A stretch of DNA of 29,233 nt from a virus: IMG/VR virus record IMGVR_UViG_3300042465_005793, positions 1 to 29,233 of that record; one strand, 5' to 3'. Each line of letters starts with the position of its first letter. The first letter of the stretch is position 1. Below are positions 3,177-29,233 of the stretch, one piece after another. The notes under the pieces are model-generated. The model saw nothing but the letters and a program-made list of their open reading frames with translations, searched no databases and was not told the origin of the DNA. A program made the position numbers and the translations under genes.

Positions 3177-3464
3177 GAAACGGCTTACACATTCAAAACC
3201 CGCCGATTTACCCTCGAACTGGCGGCCGAACCAGAGTTGTCTTTTGAGTGGCTTGGGGTAGGTGAGGACGCGCTTGTCTGTTTTTGTGCGCGCGTCCGCG
3301 TTCTGTTGGACGGGCGCGAACTGGCGTCCGACTATCTGGGCGGCTGCTGGTATGATTCAGTCGAGGCTTTCCGCCAAGACCCGTATTTTTACGACATGGT
3401 TCGCAGCGCGATCAAAGACGCCCGCGCCGCTATCCGCAACACGCCACGCCTTCGCGCGGCATAA
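3174..3464 (+). CDS. Hypothetical 96-residue protein
   Basis: No family is recognised. The start is supported by GGGA nine bases upstream inside a leader shared with the next gene. The predicted fold is alternating beta strands (YTFKTRRFTLELAAE, LVCFCARVRVLLDGRELA) followed by a C-terminal helix (DMVRSAIKDARAAIRN). The segment DYLGGCWYDSVEAF is reminiscent of small phage proteins of unknown role. A stop and re-initiation signal 15 bases downstream places it in one operon with the following genes. Confidence 0.65.
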   Translation: METAYTFKTRRFTLELAAEPELSFEWLGVGEDALVCFCARVRVLLDGRELASDYLGGCWYDSVEAFRQDPYFYDMVRSAIKDARAAIRNTPRLRAA

Positions 3465-3482
3465 ACGAGGAACGTAACGATG
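3460..3482 (+). repeat. Repeated translation-initiation leader, copy 2
   Basis: This copy differs from 3154-3176 at three of 23 positions and ends at the ATG at 3480. It also contains the stop codon of the preceding gene, so that gene sits exactly between two near-identical leaders. Confidence 0.6.
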
Positions 3483-3731
3483 ACTACATACAATGGTTGG
3501 ACCAATTACGCGACATGGCGCGTCAATCTTGAAATCTTCGACGGATATGACTCGCGAGACTTTATGTTGCCACGCGAACCGTCCGACGCGGCCGCGGCGC
3601 TCAAAGACATGGCGGAGACGCTTATTTGCGATCAGGCGCCAGAGGGCTTGGCGCGAGACTACGCGCTCGCGTTTATCAGTGACGTTAATTGGCGCGAGAT
3701 TGCGACGCATATGCTGGAGGACGCGCAATGA
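3480..3731 (+). CDS. YNGWTNYxTW-motif conserved phage protein (DUF7249-like)
   Basis: The N-terminus YNGWTNYATWRVNLEIF (residues 4-20) closely resembles a widespread small phage and plasmid protein family that starts with YNGWTNYETW. I believe this is catalogued as DUF7249, but I could not check. No biochemical role is established. The remaining 60 residues are helical and acidic, within the family's usual small size. The ATG lies behind AGGAACGTAACG, and the stop overlaps the next start as ATGA. Of the small accessory proteins here, this is the one with the clearest family identity. Confidence 0.75.
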   Translation: MTTYNGWTNYATWRVNLEIFDGYDSRDFMLPREPSDAAAALKDMAETLICDQAPEGLARDYALAFISDVNWREIATHMLEDAQ

Positions 3732-5605: not shown

Positions 5606-7969
5606 TTATTTCGCCAGCGGCAGGTTAACCACGCTCACGGGCGGCGCTCCAGGCGCGTCTTCCAGCAAGTCCCGGAGCTGGCTCTTCGTCGCCCCGGCCG
5701 CGAGCAGCCACGGGGCCGCCCAGCAAGCCTTTTTGGTCGCGTGGCGCGCGGAAGCGATGCGGCCCATGTCCTGCCAGCCGGCTTCTTTCAGGGCGTGCAG
5801 AAGCGCCGGCTGCACGATTTTGAGGCCGCCGGGCGCGTAAGCGCTTACGTCATTACAGACTGCATAAAACGGCGCCCCGACCACGCCCCTCGAGAACGGC
5901 GCTTCGCGCGCCTGAATCCGCCCCATGATGAACGATTCAGCGTTCGACATGCCGTTTTCGATCATAGACCGTTTGAAATCAGTTTCGATAGGCGTCGCGG
6001 CCGGGTTGAAGGCCGACACGTCCCGCGCCAGCAGCCAGCTCGCAACGGCTTCATACCCGCCCGACCGATACCAGTTCCACAAGGCGTCCGCCTCTTGCGG
6101 CGCCATGCGCGGCGCGCGCGACCATGTGCAGAACCAGCGGCGGTCTTGCGACGGCAACGTGATCGGCACAGGGTCATTCGTGAAGGCCAGCACGAAGACG
6201 CGGTTCAGCGCCTCATAGGGGTGCAGGCCCTTGCGATTGACGGTCAGGGTCTCGGGCGGTGCGGCGATGATCGGCTTAAGCCGGTTGGCGAGCGCCCGGC
6301 GCTCTTTCGCCTCCGGCTCCCGCAGCTCGTTAAGGATCAAAACCTCGCTCTCTAGCGCATACCCCCACTGGCCGGCGAGCCCGTCCGAGTCGATGATCCC
6401 GCGGTTCTTCAAGAACGGCCCGCACACGGCCCAAATAAAGGGCGCCCAGAGCGTATCCTTGCCGCAGCCTTCGTCGCCGCCGTGCAGCACGGCATGATTG
6501 ATCTTCACGTTCGGATTCTGAACTTTGAACGCCATAACGTCGAGGACATGCCGGCGCTCGTCGTCGTCCGGTATCAGGACCGCCGCATGGTCCAGCCACC
6601 TGGTAACGTCGCCCCTGTGCGCTTCCATCCACGCCGCCGTGTCACGGCCCTCGACAGGGCGGAACGGGCGCGCGTTGATCCATTTGTTGCCATACACGAG
6701 CCCGTCGCGGGAAACGATCTCGGTCTCGCCTGGCGCGTAGGTAATACCCGCGAGCGCCCGACCGCCGCAGTCCTGCCGCTGCTCGTCATACCACGTTGCC
6801 GCCTCGACCTTGCGGCCACTGTGGCGCGACTGGCAGTATTGATGACGGTAAATCGCGTTGAAGACCGGGCGGCTGATCTCCTGCCGGGTCGTGAGGTCGA
6901 AATAGCCGTCGTCGGACATGACATACGCGAAACGGTTGAACCATTGCGTGCGGTCTACACGAGCGGCTTCCTCGCGGTTGACACGCTCGATCTCCTCTCG
7001 CGCCTTGTCAGTGAACGCCTCGTTCGGCTTGATCTTTGACAGCGCCTCGGACATGACGCCGGCCGTCAGGTCGTCGCGCAGCCCATGCTCAGCCTGCGGG
7101 CCGCCGTTGTCGCACACCCATTGCAGGAACTCGCGGCTTCTTATGTGCGTGCAGTGGCCGTGATAGCAGCAGTAGGCGCGCGTCGCCGGCAGATAACGGC
7201 CGCCTAGTGAGCCGTCAGTGTGTTCGTGGGCGTTTGGACAAACGACTCCCACCCAACCCTCACGATTAGCTGGCTCAAGAACATATTTATTATCTGAGAG
7301 CCATCGCAGGACGCTGTCGTTACCAGTGTCCTTGACACGGATCGACGGCGCCGACGCGTTCTCCTCAAACGGCGTAATGCCCAATGCTTCGCAGATCTCT
7401 TCAAGAGTATACTCCAGCCCTTGATTGAACTCGACCAGCCGCGCCTCGAAAGCGTCCCGTCCAGGCTTCAGATTGACGGAGCCCGGCAGCCGGATGTTGC
7501 GCACCGGATTCGTGGCGCCGTGATCGGTAAAGTTCGCCGCAGCGATGGCGTTAATGGCGGCGCAGTAGGCGGCCTTGGTCGGCTGCTCGCTAAAGACGTA
7601 GCCCCACTGAAAGCTGCCGGGGCTGGTCTCCATGATCCATGTCGGCTTCAGCGGCGGCGTCTTGATGAGGACTTCCTCACCGTCATAGATCTTGATAGAT
7701 CCGACGTCGTCCAGCGGCAGGAACGCGACGTGTTCGATATTGGCGTGGCCAGCGGAGAAATTCTTCGCCAGCCGGTCTTTGATGAAGATACCCGTGTTGA
7801 CGTAGTAAGCGCCCTTCAGCGGCTTCGAGCCGGGCCGGAACGCAGGGTAGGTGTATTTCGGCTTGCCGTCTGCGTGATACTGCTGCTCACCGTCAACGAT
7901 GACGGGCTTTTGATACGTAAAGAGAAGCGTCTCGCCCTCTTGCGCCAGACCTAAAAGATATTCGATCAT
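5606..7969 (-). CDS. Primase-helicase fusion (archaeo-eukaryotic-type primase plus DUF5906-like SF3 helicase)
   Basis: The 787-residue protein should prime and unwind DNA at the phage fork. The N-terminal third resembles a RepB/AEP-type primase: LPLDDVG (84-90) fits the acidic motif I, and NIRLPGSVNLK (158-168) fits a later conserved motif. A Cys/His cluster (C244 to C273) may bind zinc. The C-terminal half is a helicase of the DUF5906 type. It has Walker A GGDEGCGKDT (497-506), Walker B VLILNEL (543-549) and a sensor motif FTNDP (596-600). It lies eight bases after the gene at 7977-8681 in the replication operon that also encodes the polymerase. The domain order is typical of phage and plasmid replicases. 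Confidence 0.85.
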   Translation of the reverse strand: MIEYLLGLAQEGETLLFTYQKPVIVDGEQQYHADGKPKYTYPAFRPGSKPLKGAYYVNTGIFIKDRLAKNFSAGHANIEHVAFLPLDDVGSIKIYDGEEVLIKTPPLKPTWIMETSPGSFQWGYVFSEQPTKAAYCAAINAIAAANFTDHGATNPVRNIRLPGSVNLKPGRDAFEARLVEFNQGLEYTLEEICEALGITPFEENASAPSIRVKDTGNDSVLRWLSDNKYVLEPANREGWVGVVCPNAHEHTDGSLGGRYLPATRAYCCYHGHCTHIRSREFLQWVCDNGGPQAEHGLRDDLTAGVMSEALSKIKPNEAFTDKAREEIERVNREEAARVDRTQWFNRFAYVMSDDGYFDLTTRQEISRPVFNAIYRHQYCQSRHSGRKVEAATWYDEQRQDCGGRALAGITYAPGETEIVSRDGLVYGNKWINARPFRPVEGRDTAAWMEAHRGDVTRWLDHAAVLIPDDDERRHVLDVMAFKVQNPNVKINHAVLHGGDEGCGKDTLWAPFIWAVCGPFLKNRGIIDSDGLAGQWGYALESEVLILNELREPEAKERRALANRLKPIIAAPPETLTVNRKGLHPYEALNRVFVLAFTNDPVPITLPSQDRRWFCTWSRAPRMAPQEADALWNWYRSGGYEAVASWLLARDVSAFNPAATPIETDFKRSMIENGMSNAESFIMGRIQAREAPFSRGVVGAPFYAVCNDVSAYAPGGLKIVQPALLHALKEAGWQDMGRIASARHATKKACWAAPWLLAAGATKSQLRDLLEDAPGAPPVSVVNLPLAK

Positions 7970-7976
7970 TGTTTCC

Positions 7977-8681
7977 TCACGCGGCTATGCGATATTCTTT
8001 GCGTTGATTTTTGATCCAGCTTTCGTCAGCATTAATGAAGCACGGCTGGATGAAGATCGGCTTGACCTCAGACAGGCCCTTGCCGACGCGCTGGTTGCGG
8101 ATGTGACCACGCCGCAGGTGCGGACGGACGGACGACTGTCCGTCGCCATCCCCGCGCTGCGTCTCGGTGATCTTGCCGATCTTTATGGTCGTGATGTAAT
8201 CATACTCACGCGGACGCTTACGGCTTTTTGGCCCGTACTTCTTGATCTTCTCTGTTGTTTTTTGAGCGTTTTTGGTGGCCAGTAACGCAAGCAGTGTGTG
8301 ATTTAGAAAACTGCTTATGTATTCAATTTCGCCGTGTAATTGAGCTGGATCAATGGAGTTATATTTGCAAATTTTTTCTATGTTTTGATGGTCAAGCCAA
8401 GATTCGTTGATTTTCAGCCGTGTTGTCAAATGATTGTTTTCTTTATCGTATTCATAGCGAAATGTGAATGTTCTTGTCGGTGCGTGGGCGCGCGTAATGA
8501 ACTTGTCCCACCCCGAAAACAATCGCGCCATAATTTTATGGTTAAGCGTAGCTTGAATGTCGAACACAGCATAAGGCGGTTGGTCTAGCCCGGCTTTTTC
8601 AAGAGCTGTGGCAGTGTCCAGAATAGTGTCGTAGTCTACGCTATCCCATATCTTTTCTTCTACCCTAAATAGATGTGTCAT
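7977..8681 (-). CDS. Conserved phage protein with C-terminal RPHxRRGHxR motif
   Basis: The start at 8681 overlaps the polymerase stop as ATGA and follows GAGAGG; the longer ORF start at 8738 would lie inside the polymerase gene. The 234-residue product is helical in its first 150 residues. It ends with RPHLRRGHIR followed by a Gly/Lys turn and a hydrophobic strand (VKPIFIQPCF). Proteins sharing an R-x-H-x-R-x-G-H signature are common in phages and mobile elements, but I know of no established activity. The reading frame is visibly richer in A and T, with more Lys, Asn and Ile codons than the flanking replication genes. This suggests separate acquisition. Confidence 0.6.
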   Translation of the reverse strand: MTHLFRVEEKIWDSVDYDTILDTATALEKAGLDQPPYAVFDIQATLNHKIMARLFSGWDKFITRAHAPTRTFTFRYEYDKENNHLTTRLKINESWLDHQNIEKICKYNSIDPAQLHGEIEYISSFLNHTLLALLATKNAQKTTEKIKKYGPKSRKRPREYDYITTIKIGKITETQRGDGDGQSSVRPHLRRGHIRNQRVGKGLSEVKPIFIQPCFINADESWIKNQRKEYRIAA

Positions 8682-10570
8682 TTCCCATACCTCTCCATAA
8701 TGCTGGCTTCTGCGTCCAGCGGTAACCCTGCCGCCCATGCCGGGGGCGTTGTCATAACCTTCTGCAATTCTTCGAGCGCCTCTTCAGGCCGATCAGTCTC
8801 AAGAACGATCTCGTCGTGAACATGCAGAACCACGTCATCAAGACGGCGCAGAGCCTCACGTAGAAGGTCATGGGCGGTCGCCTGTGTGACGTTCTCGCAG
8901 GCCAGACCCCGCCAGAGTCGGGCTCGGGGCCATTCTTTGGCGTCGGCTGCGGGCTTCCACGCCGCCTTGGCGTAGGTGATCGCATCGTCTTCAAACTTCG
9001 CGTAAGGGTAGCAAAGCACGCGGCCGGAAGGCAGAGCATACCAAAGATGCGTGCCATCATGAAGGTAAACTATCCGGCCGGCCTGAAACTGCTTGCCGGG
9101 GTTGCGCACCGCGCGCGTATAGGCCGACTCCAGTTCTTCCCAGAACGGCACGGCCCACTCGTTGGCGCGCCGCCATGCGTTGACCATGCGCCGGGCCTCG
9201 TCCTCGGGCAGAGACAGTCCGTAGACGCGGCCCATCGCGGCGAAGGCTCCAATGCCGCCGCCGAAGCCACAAGCCAATTCTTGCACCTTGCCGACCTGCC
9301 GCTGGTCCTTGGTGACGGCGTCATAGGTGGTCCTGAACGTCTCGGCGGCGTTGACCTTGTAGACGTCCAGTCCGTCCCGGAACTGTTGCAGCTTGGTGTT
9401 GTCGCCGCGGCCGGACAGCCACGGGTTGACGCGGCCCTCGATAGCGGACCAGTCAGCCACGACCAGCTTCTTGCCCTCGGCCGGGATCAGAGCGGGCCGC
9501 AGCATACCACGCAATACGTCTGTAACGCGCCGCCCAAATGCTGGCACGATGGCGTGGCTTCGCACCATTGCCTGTCGCACCCGTTCGGGCTCAGCGGCGC
9601 ACTTGCGCGTGAAATTGTGGACCTGGGCTCCGTAAGACGAAGCGCGCCCTGTAGCAGATCCGCCAGCAAATACGAAAGCGCCACGAACGCGAGCGTCGTC
9701 CCCAGCAAGATTCCACAGGCGGGCAAATTTCGCAACAGAAGACGCCCACAGGTCGTCAGCACACTGGATAACTTCTCTAACATCGGGGGGAACCTCCTCC
9801 GGGGCTTCAAACGCCAGCAAATTGGCGCGAACGGATTTGTCGATCGATTGCTTTCCGTCCTTGTCCATGAGCTTCAGCGCCTGCGGGCCAAGCCTCGCGG
9901 CGACCCACTCACGCATACGCGGGCTTCTCACCGACTGAATCTGACCACCTGTGATCTCGCGAACGGTGTCCTGTATCTCCTGAAGCTCTTTATCCGCGTA
10001 ACCGACCGCCGCGCGGCATAGATCGACGTCAACGCGAACGCCACGATCATTGATGCGCTCGTTAACATGGTAGTCCTCCAGCTCTTCCTCGGTCAGTTCG
10101 CGCATGGACTTGCTGACGGCCCGCATGGTTCGGACGTCCTGCGCGCAATATTCGAACAGTTCGGGCAGAAGATCTTCTCTAAAAGGAGGGACGCAACACT
10201 GACGCACAAGATAAGCGCCGCGATGGTCCTTACGCATCGACGAGCCTGCGAACCGGCCAACATCTTCAAGGCTTCCCGGCGCACAGTTCGCACGCGCCTG
10301 CGCAGCGGTGCAGTAGAAGTTATTCAGGAACGGCATGTTCAGCACGTTCCAGAAGATCAGCCGCTCGAAGGCGGCGTTGTGCGCCCGGATCTGGTGTGAC
10401 AGAATATGCCGCGGGAACGGCTGGTCAGGCGTCCAGACCTGCACCTCGTCGTCATCGACAGCGTAGGCCATGCAAAGCACCCGCGTTGACGGATGCTTCG
10501 CATAGTTATAGACGCCGGCTGTTTTTAGATCGCACTCGGATGCGGTCTCGAAATCCAGCCAGACGGTCAA
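8678..10570 (-). CDS. Family A DNA polymerase with 3'-5' exonuclease domain
   Basis: This is the replicative polymerase of the phage. The 630-residue protein begins with a DEDD exonuclease: D6 and E8 in WLDFETA, HNAAFE (64-69) and YCAQD (141-145). The family A palm and fingers follow: motif A VVADWSAIEGR (370-380), the O-helix motif B RQVGKVQELACGFGGG (424-439) and motif C VLHVHDEIVLE (581-591). All predicted catalytic acids are present, and there is no 5'-3' exonuclease domain. The start is a TTG at 10570 overlapping the upstream stop as TTGA, with a weak ribosome site, so translation is probably coupled. The length fits compact phage PolA-type enzymes. Confidence 0.95.
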   Translation of the reverse strand: MTVWLDFETASECDLKTAGVYNYAKHPSTRVLCMAYAVDDDEVQVWTPDQPFPRHILSHQIRAHNAAFERLIFWNVLNMPFLNNFYCTAAQARANCAPGSLEDVGRFAGSSMRKDHRGAYLVRQCCVPPFREDLLPELFEYCAQDVRTMRAVSKSMRELTEEELEDYHVNERINDRGVRVDVDLCRAAVGYADKELQEIQDTVREITGGQIQSVRSPRMREWVAARLGPQALKLMDKDGKQSIDKSVRANLLAFEAPEEVPPDVREVIQCADDLWASSVAKFARLWNLAGDDARVRGAFVFAGGSATGRASSYGAQVHNFTRKCAAEPERVRQAMVRSHAIVPAFGRRVTDVLRGMLRPALIPAEGKKLVVADWSAIEGRVNPWLSGRGDNTKLQQFRDGLDVYKVNAAETFRTTYDAVTKDQRQVGKVQELACGFGGGIGAFAAMGRVYGLSLPEDEARRMVNAWRRANEWAVPFWEELESAYTRAVRNPGKQFQAGRIVYLHDGTHLWYALPSGRVLCYPYAKFEDDAITYAKAAWKPAADAKEWPRARLWRGLACENVTQATAHDLLREALRRLDDVVLHVHDEIVLETDRPEEALEELQKVMTTPPAWAAGLPLDAEASIMERYGK

Positions 10571-11890: not shown

Positions 11891-12982
11891 CTATTTTACC
11901 TCTAGTTTAGAGAAGGCCCGACGAATGTCGGAGCCTATGGTCAGAACCGCAGGACGCGGGTCTGATTCGGGAGCCAGCGTATTACCGGACGAGACCGCAA
12001 CGATCAGTCCTTCTGGCATTGTGACCTTGTGCTTCTTCAGCACCTTCTCGACCTGCGCCGGAGAGCGCATCTCGATCAATTCTTCCGCCGGCACAAGCCC
12101 CTCAAAGGCTTCCAGCGCTTTCAGCTCGTTGACCCACTGGCGCGTTGCGCGCTTCGGAACCAGCTTGTAGCCCGGCACAGCCGCGCCCTTCTGCAACAGA
12201 TCCTGCGCCAGTTCGCGCACGTCCTTGATCCAGCCCTCCAGCTTGTCGGCCACGACCAGCGCGTCGGCCAGTTGCTGGGCGTCCAGCGCCTTGACCTTGG
12301 CGGCCAGCGCCCGGTCCACCTCGCCGCTGAGCGCCGGGCAGATCGGCTTGGCTGCACAGAAGCGGCAATGCGAGCCGTGATTGATCGGCGCGTCAGGACG
12401 AAAGGAAAGCTCGACAGCCTTAACCAGCTCGCGCTCGAAGGCAACGATCCGGCCGGGCGTCGTCACCCAGCGCCGGATGAAGGGCGGCTGGACGATGATG
12501 ATCTCTATTTCGGTAACGCCCTGAAAGACCCATCGCAGCTCGGGCGTGCGCATACCGGCGGCGGTATAGAACATGCCTTGCTCGTTTTCCTCGGCCTCGA
12601 CCTGCACGCCGTCGCCGAACTTCCAATCCAGCATGACTGCGCGATTGCGTATGCGCCCAGCGAGATCGCAACTACCAAAAACTCCGGCAAGAAAACCTCC
12701 AAAATGAACGCGCGTCTCGGTAACGAACTCCATCTCTCTGTTGGGGTCGATTTCTTCGAGGGCGGCGAGCGCGAACCGGATCTTGTCTTCCTGCGCCTCG
12801 GTGAGGTCTTCAGGAAACGGTTCGCCGGACAGGACACGGTGCATGACGTCATGCAGCATCGTGCCTTCTTCAGCGTAGCGGCCTGCGGGCCGCGGCGGAA
12901 CCTTGTCTATAAGCTGGCGGCTGCCGGGGCAAGCCATAAGGCGCTTGGCGGACGAGCCGCCGACAATCGTGCTGTGTGCCAT
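11891..12982 (-). CDS. DUF2800 family PD-(D/E)XK nuclease, Cas4/AddB-like
   Basis: Predicted recombination or replication exonuclease. With the start at 12982 (AAAGG seven bases upstream) it has 363 residues. The nuclease core is visible as EGTMLH (39-44), D106 in FGSCD and DWK (119-121), the expected PD-(D/E)XK acidic and lysine residues. Four cysteines, C18 and then C206, C209 and C215 (CRFCAAKPIC), match the split cysteine layout of Cas4 and AddB nucleases that hold a 4Fe-4S cluster. The C-terminal half is helical. Such genes usually accompany phage PolA, VRR-NUC and SNF2 genes, as here. It is the first gene of the leftward replication operon. Confidence 0.85.
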   Translation of the reverse strand: MAHSTIVGGSSAKRLMACPGSRQLIDKVPPRPAGRYAEEGTMLHDVMHRVLSGEPFPEDLTEAQEDKIRFALAALEEIDPNREMEFVTETRVHFGGFLAGVFGSCDLAGRIRNRAVMLDWKFGDGVQVEAEENEQGMFYTAAGMRTPELRWVFQGVTEIEIIIVQPPFIRRWVTTPGRIVAFERELVKAVELSFRPDAPINHGSHCRFCAAKPICPALSGEVDRALAAKVKALDAQQLADALVVADKLEGWIKDVRELAQDLLQKGAAVPGYKLVPKRATRQWVNELKALEAFEGLVPAEELIEMRSPAQVEKVLKKHKVTMPEGLIVAVSSGNTLAPESDPRPAVLTIGSDIRRAFSKLEVK

Positions 12983-13044
12983 TACCATACCTTTCTTGTG
13001 AGACGGACCTTGACACATTCATGAATTTTATGCAAGTCGTATTT

Positions 13045-25647: not shown

Positions 25648-26358
25648 TCAAAAATTTCCCGCGTATACATTGTATCTTTGCCTAGTCCCCACGATGCTGT
25701 AAGGCAGCGCCATGATGTCGTCAGGATTATTGATGCGCTTCAGATTGCGCTTGCTATACATGGCGATGCGCTGGACCTGCGCCGAGGGCTCAACGCCGAA
25801 CTCCGGCGCAATCTCGCAGGCCAGATTGTAGCGAAACGCGCGCAGATAGCCCGGCGGGAACGACAGCGTCGTCGCCAGCGTCGCCGGCTGCGTCAGCTCC
25901 TCAACCGAAATGAAATGCCACTCCAATGCGCGGAGCGGCACCGGGTAGACATACATCTCGATGTCGGGGAACGACATGTTGATCCAGATCACCTGTGGAT
26001 AGGTGCTGGTCACAGTCTTGACAGCGATGCCATCATACTGCTGCTGGTTGATGATCTTGATGCCGTAGGAGACGTTGGTCTGCGGATCGCGGAAGTAGGT
26101 CGCGTCGTCTACCAGAACCGGACGGTTACCGACAAAATTACCTGTCGGCCCCAGAGTCCTTGATCTCTGGCTTGACGGCCATGTGAACACCTGATCCTGT
26201 GTCGAAAACACTGACAGGCGTTCCGTGTTCCAACTGTCGATCATCTGGTTCAGCGCCATCAGCGCGTCCTGCGACGTTTCGGACGAAGGCGTTTCGCCCT
26301 CTGCGAGGACGCCCAGAAGACGCAACGCTCCGTTGATCTGCTCGCCCGCTGTCGTCAT
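25648..26358 (-). CDS. Tail accessory factor, P22 gp4-like
   Basis: Portal-adapter protein that binds below the portal ring and supports gp10. From ATG 26358 it has 236 residues; a TTG three codons upstream is possible. The N-terminal helices (INGALRLLGVLAEGE and ALMALNQMIDSWNTERL) and the stretch VFTWPSSQRSRTLGPTGNFV are typical of the gp4 family. So are the central strands (IWINMSFPDIEMYVYPVPLR) and the helical end (CEIAPEFGVEPSAQVQRIAM). P22 gp4 also has a lysozyme-like activity; I see no motif that tells whether this homolog does. Confidence 0.9.
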   Translation of the reverse strand: MTTAGEQINGALRLLGVLAEGETPSSETSQDALMALNQMIDSWNTERLSVFSTQDQVFTWPSSQRSRTLGPTGNFVGNRPVLVDDATYFRDPQTNVSYGIKIINQQQYDGIAVKTVTSTYPQVIWINMSFPDIEMYVYPVPLRALEWHFISVEELTQPATLATTLSFPPGYLRAFRYNLACEIAPEFGVEPSAQVQRIAMYSKRNLKRINNPDDIMALPYSIVGTRQRYNVYAGNF

Positions 26359-26464
26359 CAGGTTCAAACCTTTCCCAGCCGTTCTGCTCGTCGTAGTCGG
26401 CTTCGAGATCCATAGTTGCGACTTTAGCCCCGTGGACAGGATGCCGCAGATAAATTACCGCCAT
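26138..26464 (-). CDS. Conserved short phage protein with over-long frame overlapping gp4
   Basis: The first 35 residues contain AVIYLRHPVHGAKVATMDLE and YDEQNGWERFEP, resembling a short conserved phage protein found next to gp4-like genes. The ribosome site AGGTGG lies just before the ATG. From about residue 36 the frame continues for 73 codons inside the gp4-like gene with a basic, disordered composition (RPRRGRNAFVRN), which looks like antiframe read-through. The relatives I recall are longer than 35 residues and end in their own lysine-rich tail. A lost stop, a frameshift or a real overprinted extension are all possible. Confidence 0.6.
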   Translation of the reverse strand: MAVIYLRHPVHGAKVATMDLEADYDEQNGWERFEPDDDSGRADQRSVASSGRPRRGRNAFVRNVAGRADGAEPDDRQLEHGTPVSVFDTGSGVHMAVKPEIKDSGADR

Positions 26465-27253: not shown

Positions 27254-29194
27254 TTAACCCCAGAGCCGAACGGCCATCTGCGGACGGATGACGCTGTAAC
27301 CATACAGAACGTCGATACGGCACGGGAGACGGTCGTTATTGATGTCATACTGACGGACAATACGGAGCGAGATGCCGTTGTGGACCTGACGCGACGCCAT
27401 ATCGACGCCCTGCGGCATCAGCAGGTCGGCGGTGGCGAAGGCGATAGCGTCCTTGTGGTAGATCAGGTTCTGCGGATACTGCGTGTTCGCGGTCCCGACA
27501 AACACAACCGACTTGCTGTTGCCCGGCAGCGCATCGACAGTCGCAAGCGCCTGCGAAGACGAATACATCGCCGAAACAGTGACCGTGGCGTTACCGCCCG
27601 CCGCCGTGACGTCCGCCAGAGCGACGAACTGGAACAGCGAACCGGTGGATTCACGGGTCTGCGGGTTGACGGCAAAGCAGTCGGCAATCGTGAACACGTC
27701 GCCAGCCTTGATGGTGTTCGTGCTGAGACCAGTCAGAGCGATGCTCGCCGCGCCTTCAGTCGTAACAGCCGCCGAAGTGGACGCGCCCGTCGCGGCGCGG
27801 GTGCCCGTCGTGAACTGCTTGATCGACTGCGACATATTCAGCTCGTCATAGCCGAGGATGCCTTCACCGAACATGCCGTTCTTGAACTGCTTCGAGATAG
27901 CCGAGACCGGGTTGAAGAGACCCTTCATACCCTCGATCAGCGCGGCGTTGGCGGCCGGATTGACCGTCGCATAGCGCGGCGACATGACAGCGGCGTTCTC
28001 GTTCAGCTTCTGCTGCGCCTGAAGCAGGACCAGCGACGTAGCCGGCGTCGTGCCGGGCGTGCCGACCGAGTTGCCGATATACTTGAAGCTGTTCGCAACG
28101 TCCGCGTCAATAGAAGCGGCGAGCTGCGAAATACGAGGCTTGAGAACGCGGTCGGCAAAGTCGTCCAACTGCATCGTCAGCTCGGCGGTCGTGAAGTTGA
28201 CGCCGATGTGCTTCTGGCTGGAGACCGCGAGCGTGGTATACTGCTCGTTGTCGTCCTGAACCTGAAGCGCCGCGCCGTCCGTGACCAGAGCGCGGTCGGG
28301 CAGACGGATGCGGAGGGTCGAGCCGATCTTGGCGCCCTCTACAGCAAACGAATCGTCATCACCATGTTCGAAGCAGATCGCTACTTCTGCCCCCGCTTGC
28401 GCGGCTGCCGCTTTCACGGCAGGTCAGACTATATCTTTAGATATGACGCCAAATACGCCCACTACGGATCATAGACACCAGTGACGGGGTCACTCCGTAT
28501 TGAGCCGCTATTTCGCGGTTCGTGCCTCGAAAAGCGCGGATTTCTCGCACCTGGTCTTCCGTGAGTTTTGCGTGTCCGTTCCGGGTTCCGTGCGCCTGTC
28601 GATTCTTATCCACCATGTCTTGCATGTTGGCGTCAAAATCTCCGGCAAACAGATGCGCGGGGTTCACACACTTACGGTTGTCGCACGAATGAAGGATGTA
28701 AGCCTGACCCGGATCGCCGTAAGCCAACTCAAAGGCTACGCGGTGAGCATAGGCAGTCTTGCCGTCCTTATGGATTTGACCATAGCCGTTAGGCATCAGG
28801 CATCCCGTCCATTCATGGCATCCGTTTTCACGTATCGCCACCTTTGCGAAGAATCGCTCTTTCAAGTCACGCTTCATATCTACCCCGCATTTCGGGCCGC
28901 TTGGCCCTACGAGCTTTCGCTCTAGTCGTTGGACCTTCATCATATCACAGTAAGTGATAAGATGCTTGGCTGCTGATTGCCCAATCCACAGGCTTTTCAG
29001 ACCGTCGCGCTTGTCATTTCTAACTACGCTGTGGTGCATGTGGCTCTAAGGGGTTTCCAGCAATTAACGGGGTTTAACGTCAGCTAGACTTACGTTTACT
29101 GACGGTTAACAGTGCGGGTCAGGACAAGATTATTCTCAAGGATTTCAAGGGCCTTGCGAGTAATCATGTCAATCGTAAGAAGCGAATTGCTCAC
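27254..29194 (-). CDS. Major coat protein, P22 gp5-like, split by group I intron (exons 29098-29194 and 27254-28359)
   Basis: The capsid subunit, encoded in two exons. Exon 1 starts at GTG 29194, eight bases after AAGGA, and encodes 32 residues (SNSLLTIDMITRKALEIL, then TRTVNRQ). Without splicing it meets TAA at the next codon. Exon 2 begins at 28359. Joining T at 29098 to AT at 28359 makes the codon for Tyr and restores VNRQYDDSFAVEGAKIGSTL, the conserved N-terminus of the P22 coat family. The spliced protein is 400 residues (P22: 430). Downstream motifs also fit (LRIRLPDRALV, TAELTMQLDDFADRVL). An ORF from 28417 gives a false N-terminus made of intron sequence. Confidence 0.92.
28360..29097 (-). 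other. Group I self-splicing intron in the coat gene (738 bases)
   Basis: The conserved core is readable on the minus strand: P element AATTGCTGGAAAC (29053-29065), Q AATCAGCAGCCAAG (28965-28978), R GTCCAACGACTAGA (28921-28934) and S AAGATATAGTC (28427-28437). P7 forms between GACTA in R and TAGTC in S. For P1, the 5' exon CGTCAGT (29098-29104) pairs with the internal guide GCTGACG (29078-29084) over seven positions, ending in the required U-G pair at the splice site. After S come hairpins CTGCCG/CGGCAG (28405-28422, P9) and CCGC-GCAA-GCGG (28393-28404). The terminal G is at 28360. The 3' site is inferred from the protein frame and the terminal G. Confidence 0.95.
28437..28877 (-). CDS. HNH homing endonuclease inside the intron P8 loop
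   Basis: From ATG 28877 (GGGG upstream) the product has 146 residues. The HNH_3-type core reads AYAHRVAFELAYGD (42-55), ILHSCDNRKCVNPAHLF (61-77) with H63, N72 and H75, and Cys 65 and 70. A C-terminal HTH-like domain (LTEDQVREIRAFRG, REIAAQYGVTPSLVSMIRSG) should read the target site. It lies between the R and S elements, that is, in P8, and its stop TAA shares one base with the S element. It is expected to cut intronless coat genes at the insertion site and so spread the intron. The frame opens further to 29039, but those residues cover the intron core. Confidence 0.92.
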   Translation of the reverse strand: MKRDLKERFFAKVAIRENGCHEWTGCLMPNGYGQIHKDGKTAYAHRVAFELAYGDPGQAYILHSCDNRKCVNPAHLFAGDFDANMQDMVDKNRQAHGTRNGHAKLTEDQVREIRAFRGTNREIAAQYGVTPSLVSMIRSGRIWRHI

Positions 29195-29232: not shown

Positions 29233-29233
29233 G

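Follow-up and report, generated by a model that had tools for sequence, protein, structure and literature searches.

Background

Introns in capsid genes of bacteriophages have been described before. In mycobacteriophage LittleE, splicing of an intron in the major capsid gene was established by RT-PCR and N-terminal sequencing, and an excerpt of the report calls it 'most likely a group I' (PMC3706429). The same excerpt cites an intron in a capsid subunit gene of the lactococcal phage Tuc2009. Co-conversion of the flanking exon and its asymmetry have been described for T4 (excerpt of PMC2988022), and in the phiPA3/phiKZ system an intron-encoded HNH enzyme acts against the competing phage (excerpt of PMC11620839).

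The window, by which we mean the whole stretch of DNA analysed, comprises 29,233 nt and corresponds to positions 1 to 29,233 of the IMG/VR record IMGVR_UViG_3300042465_005793. Pfam domains are matched at 5606-7969 (DUF5906 and RepB-type primase), 8678-10570 (family A DNA polymerase), 11891-13018 (DUF2800 and PD-(D/E)XK nuclease), and 25648-26367 on the minus strand (P22 tail accessory factor).

Based on sequence comparisons we propose, with a probability of roughly 0.93, that the coat gene of this P22-type environmental phage carries a mobile group I intron, which would splice and home as outlined below. Like the LittleE intron, as far as the excerpt of PMC3706429 describes it, the intron resides in a major capsid gene, is preceded by U, ends with G, and carries a homing endonuclease gene. 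However, the LittleE capsid is related to HK97 gp5 and its insertion measures 819-bp, whereas the coat of the window is P22-type and one site is used in 56 contigs. In addition, the LittleE endonuclease is encoded on the opposite strand and called LAGLIDADG-like in that excerpt, whereas the window has an HNH gene on the same strand within P8. Tuc2009 also has its intron in a capsid subunit gene, which is known from one citing sentence given without a sequence comparison (PMC3706429). The phiPA3 gp210 intron is a putative group I intron with an HNH gene in a conserved essential gene as well, but there the host gene is an RNA polymerase subunit, and hindrance of the competitor has been shown (excerpt of PMC11620839). 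With respect to phiKZ-like introns, a phiKZ stretch matches the 5' core in the window with 68.6% identity across 24% of the intron length. The td and nrd introns of T4 and the Bacillus phage I-HmuI intron are likewise phage group I introns with encoded endonucleases, but reside in host genes other than the coat, and td co-conversion is biased to exon I, whereas the putatively converted tract of the window is longer on exon 2 (excerpt of PMC2988022 for the known introns).

According to the first-pass annotation of this DNA, an intron in a P22-type coat gene is not known. This claim to novelty is only partly right: no such report was found in the open-access full-text literature searched, which largely leaves out subscription papers, but for LittleE an intron of a major capsid gene has already been published. 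Thus, the kind of element is already known, and the novelty lies in its family, in the site fixed within P22-type coat genes, and in a likely before-and-after pair.

Results

The interrupted coat gene

Exon 1 of the coat gene (29194-29098, minus strand, 97 nt) begins with GTG, and its last base is the first base of codon 33. Read unspliced, it immediately encounters a stop, T29098-A-A forming TAA, so that the first-pass description of a 97-base GTG exon with an immediate in-frame TAA is borne out. Exon 2 (28359-27254, minus strand) contains 1106 nt including the stop codon and starts with A28359. Excising the 738 nt in between brings both exons into one open frame of 400 codons. The predicted spliced protein matches the Pfam profile PF11651 (P22_CoatProtein) over its full length (1-423 of 423, E 7.2e-36), in agreement with the earlier assignment to the P22 coat family, whereas the unspliced ORF 28417-27254 matches profile positions 72-423 only (E 1.2e-29). 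The latter ORF, with a GTG start and 387 codons, is the one that an automatic caller would pick, exactly the mis-start at 28417 with loss of exon 1 that had been foreseen. The ORF 28417-27257 matches phrog_283 (major head protein). Matches of the coat to solved structures are weak and partial, the best being 8skg, a putative coat protein (E 3.2e-6, residues 244-394). The G+C content is 52.8% in the intron and 61.4% in exon 2.

Altogether 45 phage records match the coat, and among the matches listed MW202483 (88.3%) and phage DSL-LC05 (77.0%) are uninterrupted relatives. The N-R-Q-Y-D codons are contiguous across the junction in all 82 intronless loci (L001, L002, and L005-L084); the IMG/VR part of this set consists of the best 80 loci, a choice that favours uninterrupted genes, and the prevalence of the intron can therefore not be read off. 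Between the window and L088, a further intron carrier, 24 of the 97 bases of exon 1 differ, while the peptides differ at two places, one of which is the GTG/ATG start. These few peptide differences among many base differences suggest that exon 1 is still coding and selected as protein.

Identification of the intron and its splice sites

The proposed intron (28360-29097, minus strand) is 738 nt long and ends with G28360. The Rfam scan suggested in the first-pass annotation yields a match to the group I family RF00028 at 29136-28405 on the minus strand with 82.5 bits (gathering score 50) and an E-value of 8.6e-20, the sole Rfam family in the window at gathering score. With a different windowing of the same record, the match is split into two partial matches of 44.7 and 25.1 bits, both below the cut-off. 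All 19 relatives tested have RF00028 above the gathering score. Taken together, the sequence evidence confirms 28360-29097 as a group I intron in a P22-type coat gene, as predicted.

Because the Rfam alignment begins within exon 1 and puts P1 elsewhere, the splice sites rest on the P1 and P9.0 pairings and on the relatives. In all 55 introns extracted, a T precedes the intron and a G terminates it. In the window, the exon side of P1 (29104-29098, CGUCAGU) pairs with the internal guide sequence (29084-29078, GCUGACG), both on the minus strand, and P1 closes with U.G at the 5' splice site. Three combinations of exon side and guide occur in the family (CGUCAGU/GCUGACG, CGUGAGU/GCUCACG, and ACUCAGU/GCUGAGU), and both sides change together in L124, L125, L128, and L129. 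The outermost pair is non-standard in 12 of the 55 introns, that of the window itself being intact. At the other end, the P9.0 strands AC (28423..28424) and GU (28361..28362, adjoining the terminal G28360), again on the minus strand, are replaced by compensated dinucleotides in relatives. Six types were found (AC/GU, AU/AU, GU/AC, UU/AA, CU/AG, and GC/GC), all 64 cells are paired, and these types support G28360 as the last intron base. In L092-L094, the 3' end was placed at the end of the reading frame, and the P9.0 pairing agrees with it. Through such compensatory changes in relatives, P1 supports the 5' splice site and P9.0 the 3' splice site. The seven-base P1 ending in U-G at 29098/29097 and the exact, pairing-supported splice sites noted in the first pass were thus corroborated by co-variation.

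The heptamer CGTCAGT is found in 51 of the 55 carriers versus 32 of the 82 intronless relatives (Fisher p 4e-11, the contigs not being independent). Such an excess is expected if guide pairing or co-conversion fixes CGTCAGT.

Co-variation in the ribozyme core

The structure was drawn with 75 pairs in 14 helices (P1, P3, P4, P5, P6, P6a, P7, P7.1, P7.2, P8, P9, P9.0, P9.1, and P9.2) and evaluated over 2382 cells from 32 distinct cores. In this alignment, P3 is formed by 29067..29073 and 28882..28888, P4 by 29057..29063 and 28970..28976, P7 by 28923..28927 (GACUA) and 28427..28431 (UAGUC), and P8 by 28875..28881 (AGAUAUG) and 28439..28445 (CAUAUCU), all on the minus strand. P7, already recognised in the window alone, is paired in all cells and has double changes in three of its five pairs; in P8 these affect six of seven pairs.

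Standard pairs make up 93.7% of the cells, compared to a mean of 81.0% and a maximum of 82.3% in 200 shuffles, and double-sided changes are present in 45 of the 75 pairs, compared to a mean of 24.8 and a maximum of 34 in the same number of shuffles; the aligned rows are kin, however, so that the shuffles overstate independence. If the partners are slid by one to three columns, just 31.5-41.2% are paired. The comparative data thus indicate that the drawn structure is not due to chance. Some helices hardly vary, namely P4, whose 5' strand is nearly invariant and devoid of double changes (200 of 200 shuffles equally good), and P9.1 (9 of 200). P10, between the guide region and exon 2, consists of three nearly invariant pairs and gains no support from variation (52 of 200 shuffles equally good). 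A candidate assignment is subgroup IA2, which is characterised by two extra hairpins between P7 and P3, P7.1 and P7.2. Both are present and co-vary in the 32 cores.

The HNH endonuclease gene

The loop of P8 contains a predicted HNH homing endonuclease gene of 146 codons (28877-28437, minus strand, the same strand as the coat), which matches Pfam HNH_3 (E 5.6e-8) and phrog_1872 (5.2e-30). Neither this gene nor the same-site family was part of the first-pass annotation. The AUG of the HNH gene belongs to the P8 5' strand, and the first base (U) of its stop codon to the 3' strand. Ribozyme folding and synthesis of the enzyme may therefore be in competition. The dS values for L091, L092, and L095 are 0.46, 0.40, and 0.57, compared to dN values of 0.027, 0.039, and 0.070, from which the HNH gene appears to be under purifying selection in close pairs; seven of 12 rows were used here, L098, L105, L107, L112, and L180 being dropped because their ungapped comparison shifted the codons.

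In the phage collection, none of the HNH matches (1335 records) attains 60% identity, and in bacterial genomes 14 matching loci with 35-47% identity were found. Another 37 HNH loci (L130-L166) were collected, 20 of which were scanned with Rfam, giving a group I intron at gathering score in L130 alone. There, the intron (2670-2944) is followed by a related HNH gene, and the locus is devoid of a coat match. A second HNH gene, 34-41% identical to that of the intron, is located about 220-300 nt past the coat match in L099, L107, L108, L110, L112, L115, L117, and L123. An HNH gene of this second type also comes after the coat gene of L142, which is intronless.

The same-site intron family

Including the window, 56 IMG/VR contigs contain an intron at the identical base, and the coat proteins of the carriers are 36-100% identical to that of the window. 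The loci were obtained by an HNH search (best 80 of 386 relatives) and a pattern search (105 stretches), and the match to the coat is interrupted in them around residue 32/33. We analysed 55 of the 56 carriers in detail, leaving out L126 with an S motif off by one base. Of these, 41 are distinct in exon 1, intron, and the start of exon 2, and 32 in the core; some carrier contigs may represent one virus assembled repeatedly. Intron lengths range from 347 to 789 nt, and a stop directly follows exon 1 in 52 of the 55. The shortest intron, of 347 nt, is that of L219 (IMGVR_UViG_3300010397_000102), which occupies the same site without an HNH gene and reaches 78.6 bits in Rfam. Among the 55, only L117 has a premature stop in exon 2, located at codon 36 of this exon.

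Outside the family, phiKZ as well as Aeromonas and Alicyclobacillus phages are among those with stretches similar to the 5' core (20-24% of the query and 68.6-82.2% identity in the 30 of 124 records listed), and none of the 124 records matching the 5' core covers 80% of the intron.

Another P22-type coat gene, L003 (MW202674.1 13569-21096), is split at a different site by an insert of about 270 nt (3250-3540) and is annotated as two coat genes and a hypothetical protein. By eye, a P1-like pairing, R- and S-like motifs, and the P3/P8 order can be seen in the insert (fold z -3.3), and it has a 76% match to Roseobacter phage CRP-118 over 36% of the query. It does not have any Rfam match up to E 1. 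Given the other insertion site and the missing Rfam match, L003 was rejected as a second carrier.

Probable mobility and homing footprint

Intron and first 150 bases of exon 2 are identical between the window and L088, while exon 1 is 75.3% identical. In contrast, exon 1 of the window differs from that of the intronless L015 at two bases (-11 and -5) and from that of L005 at three (-14, -11, and -5). The window was also compared site by site, L088 being taken as the donor and L015 as the empty allele. Between -97 and -20, every one of the 23 informative sites in exon 1 of the window has the base of the empty allele, and the 11 informative sites between -5 and +41 all have that of the donor, so that the lineage switches between -19 and -6. 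Past +41 the pattern is mixed, with donor matches at 92, 122, 140, 320, and 329 and matches to the empty allele at 155, 206, 263, and 416. Bases upstream of -97, where indels were not checked, were left out of this count; the footprint rests on a handful of contigs, and the window extends 39 nt beyond the start of exon 1. An exon 1 like that of the empty allele combined with a donor-like junction is what co-conversion after homing would leave.

The carrier pairs with introns at least 90% alike (n=46) point in the same direction. Exon 1 is more than five points below the intron in 29 of them and as alike as the intron or more in eight. For the part of exon 2 past base 100, a gap of over five points to the intron is seen in 20 of the 40 pairs measured. 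For example, L101 and L104 share 97.8% in the intron, 83.7% in exon 1, and 77.7% in exon 2 beyond base 100. As individual carriers occur in several pairs, and rates are not the same for coding and non-coding sequence, this comparison is taken as supporting evidence only. In the coat tree, the presence of the intron needs at least seven changes, at least four of which are forced by well-supported branches. The tree, computed by a quick method with long branches flagged, includes 49 of the 55 carriers and 81 of the 82 intronless rows after short ones were dropped, and was used only for counting changes, gain and loss not being separable by it. The features of a homing intron found in the family are an endonuclease gene, one cognate site, intron-bearing as well as intronless alleles, and a co-conversion footprint.

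Discussion

It could be imagined that the coat gene is truly split and never spliced, the protein either starting at GTG 28417 inside the intron or associating from two pieces, as is reported for the NrdA of Aeh1, which is split by an insertion with mobE. The open frame of 387 codons that leads from this GTG through the intron end into exon 2 would fit, and unspliced genes split by an HNH element exist (excerpt of PMC7344957). However, 23 of the 55 introns lack any start codon in that frame, and where one is present (32 introns), its position varies from 5 to 29 codons upstream. With no start being conserved, a coat start inside the intron was rejected. In addition, exon 1 is still constrained as protein, and P1 and P9.0 are maintained by double changes. 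A split, unspliced coat is therefore very improbable.

Concerning mobility, the intron might once have been mobile and now be inherited only vertically, with an inactive HNH enzyme and a patchy distribution due to loss. L219 with its missing HNH gene would agree with this, and so would the tree, which cannot tell gain from loss. But vertical inheritance does not account well for an intron shared at 100% next to an exon 1 shared at 75.3%, nor for the lineage switch so close to the junction, and in close pairs the HNH gene, whose frame is open, has a dN lower than its dS. A decayed intron is also not favoured, given that the drawn pairs stand in the window and the HNH frame is uninterrupted. We thus regard purely vertical inheritance as improbable. 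It is slightly less probable still that exon 1 of the window owes its mosaic pattern to chimaeric assembly, in which case the intron would be real and no homing event would be recorded there. The record ends at 29233, near the junction, where strain variants can be mis-joined. However, the last 20 bases of exon 1 match neither the donors nor the empty relatives, the window having its own T at -11, and the lower similarity of exon 1 compared to the intron is seen in other carrier pairs, too.

According to the mobile intron reading that we prefer, the guide sequence would pair with the end of exon 1 in the transcript to form P1, and a guanosine would attack after U29098. The freed exon would then attack after G28360, held by P9.0, and the joined mRNA would encode the full 400-residue coat protein; splicing is what we infer here. 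Encoded in the P8 loop, the HNH enzyme would cut intronless coat genes at or near the junction of NRQ and YDDSF. Repair from the intron-bearing copy would spread the intron and, along with it, a part of the flanking exons that is larger for exon 2. A transfer of this kind, with an L005/L015-like coat gene as recipient and an L087-L090-like donor, probably gave rise to the window itself.

Each virion requires hundreds of coat protein copies. An intron at this place thus demands efficient splicing late in infection. It is a tentative and rather doubtful idea that the homing-intron lineage has accompanied P22-type coat genes while these diverged deeply, to as little as about 36% identity, and that its HNH enzyme cleaves this gene in co-infecting relatives without the intron, which would make the lineage a weapon against the capsids of competitors in addition to a selfish element. 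For annotation, a gene caller that misses exon 1 and starts the coat in the intron would spoil coat-based trees and structure models. A family fixed to one base in divergent coat genes, together with a likely before-and-after pair, would represent a natural experiment on homing in uncultured phages.
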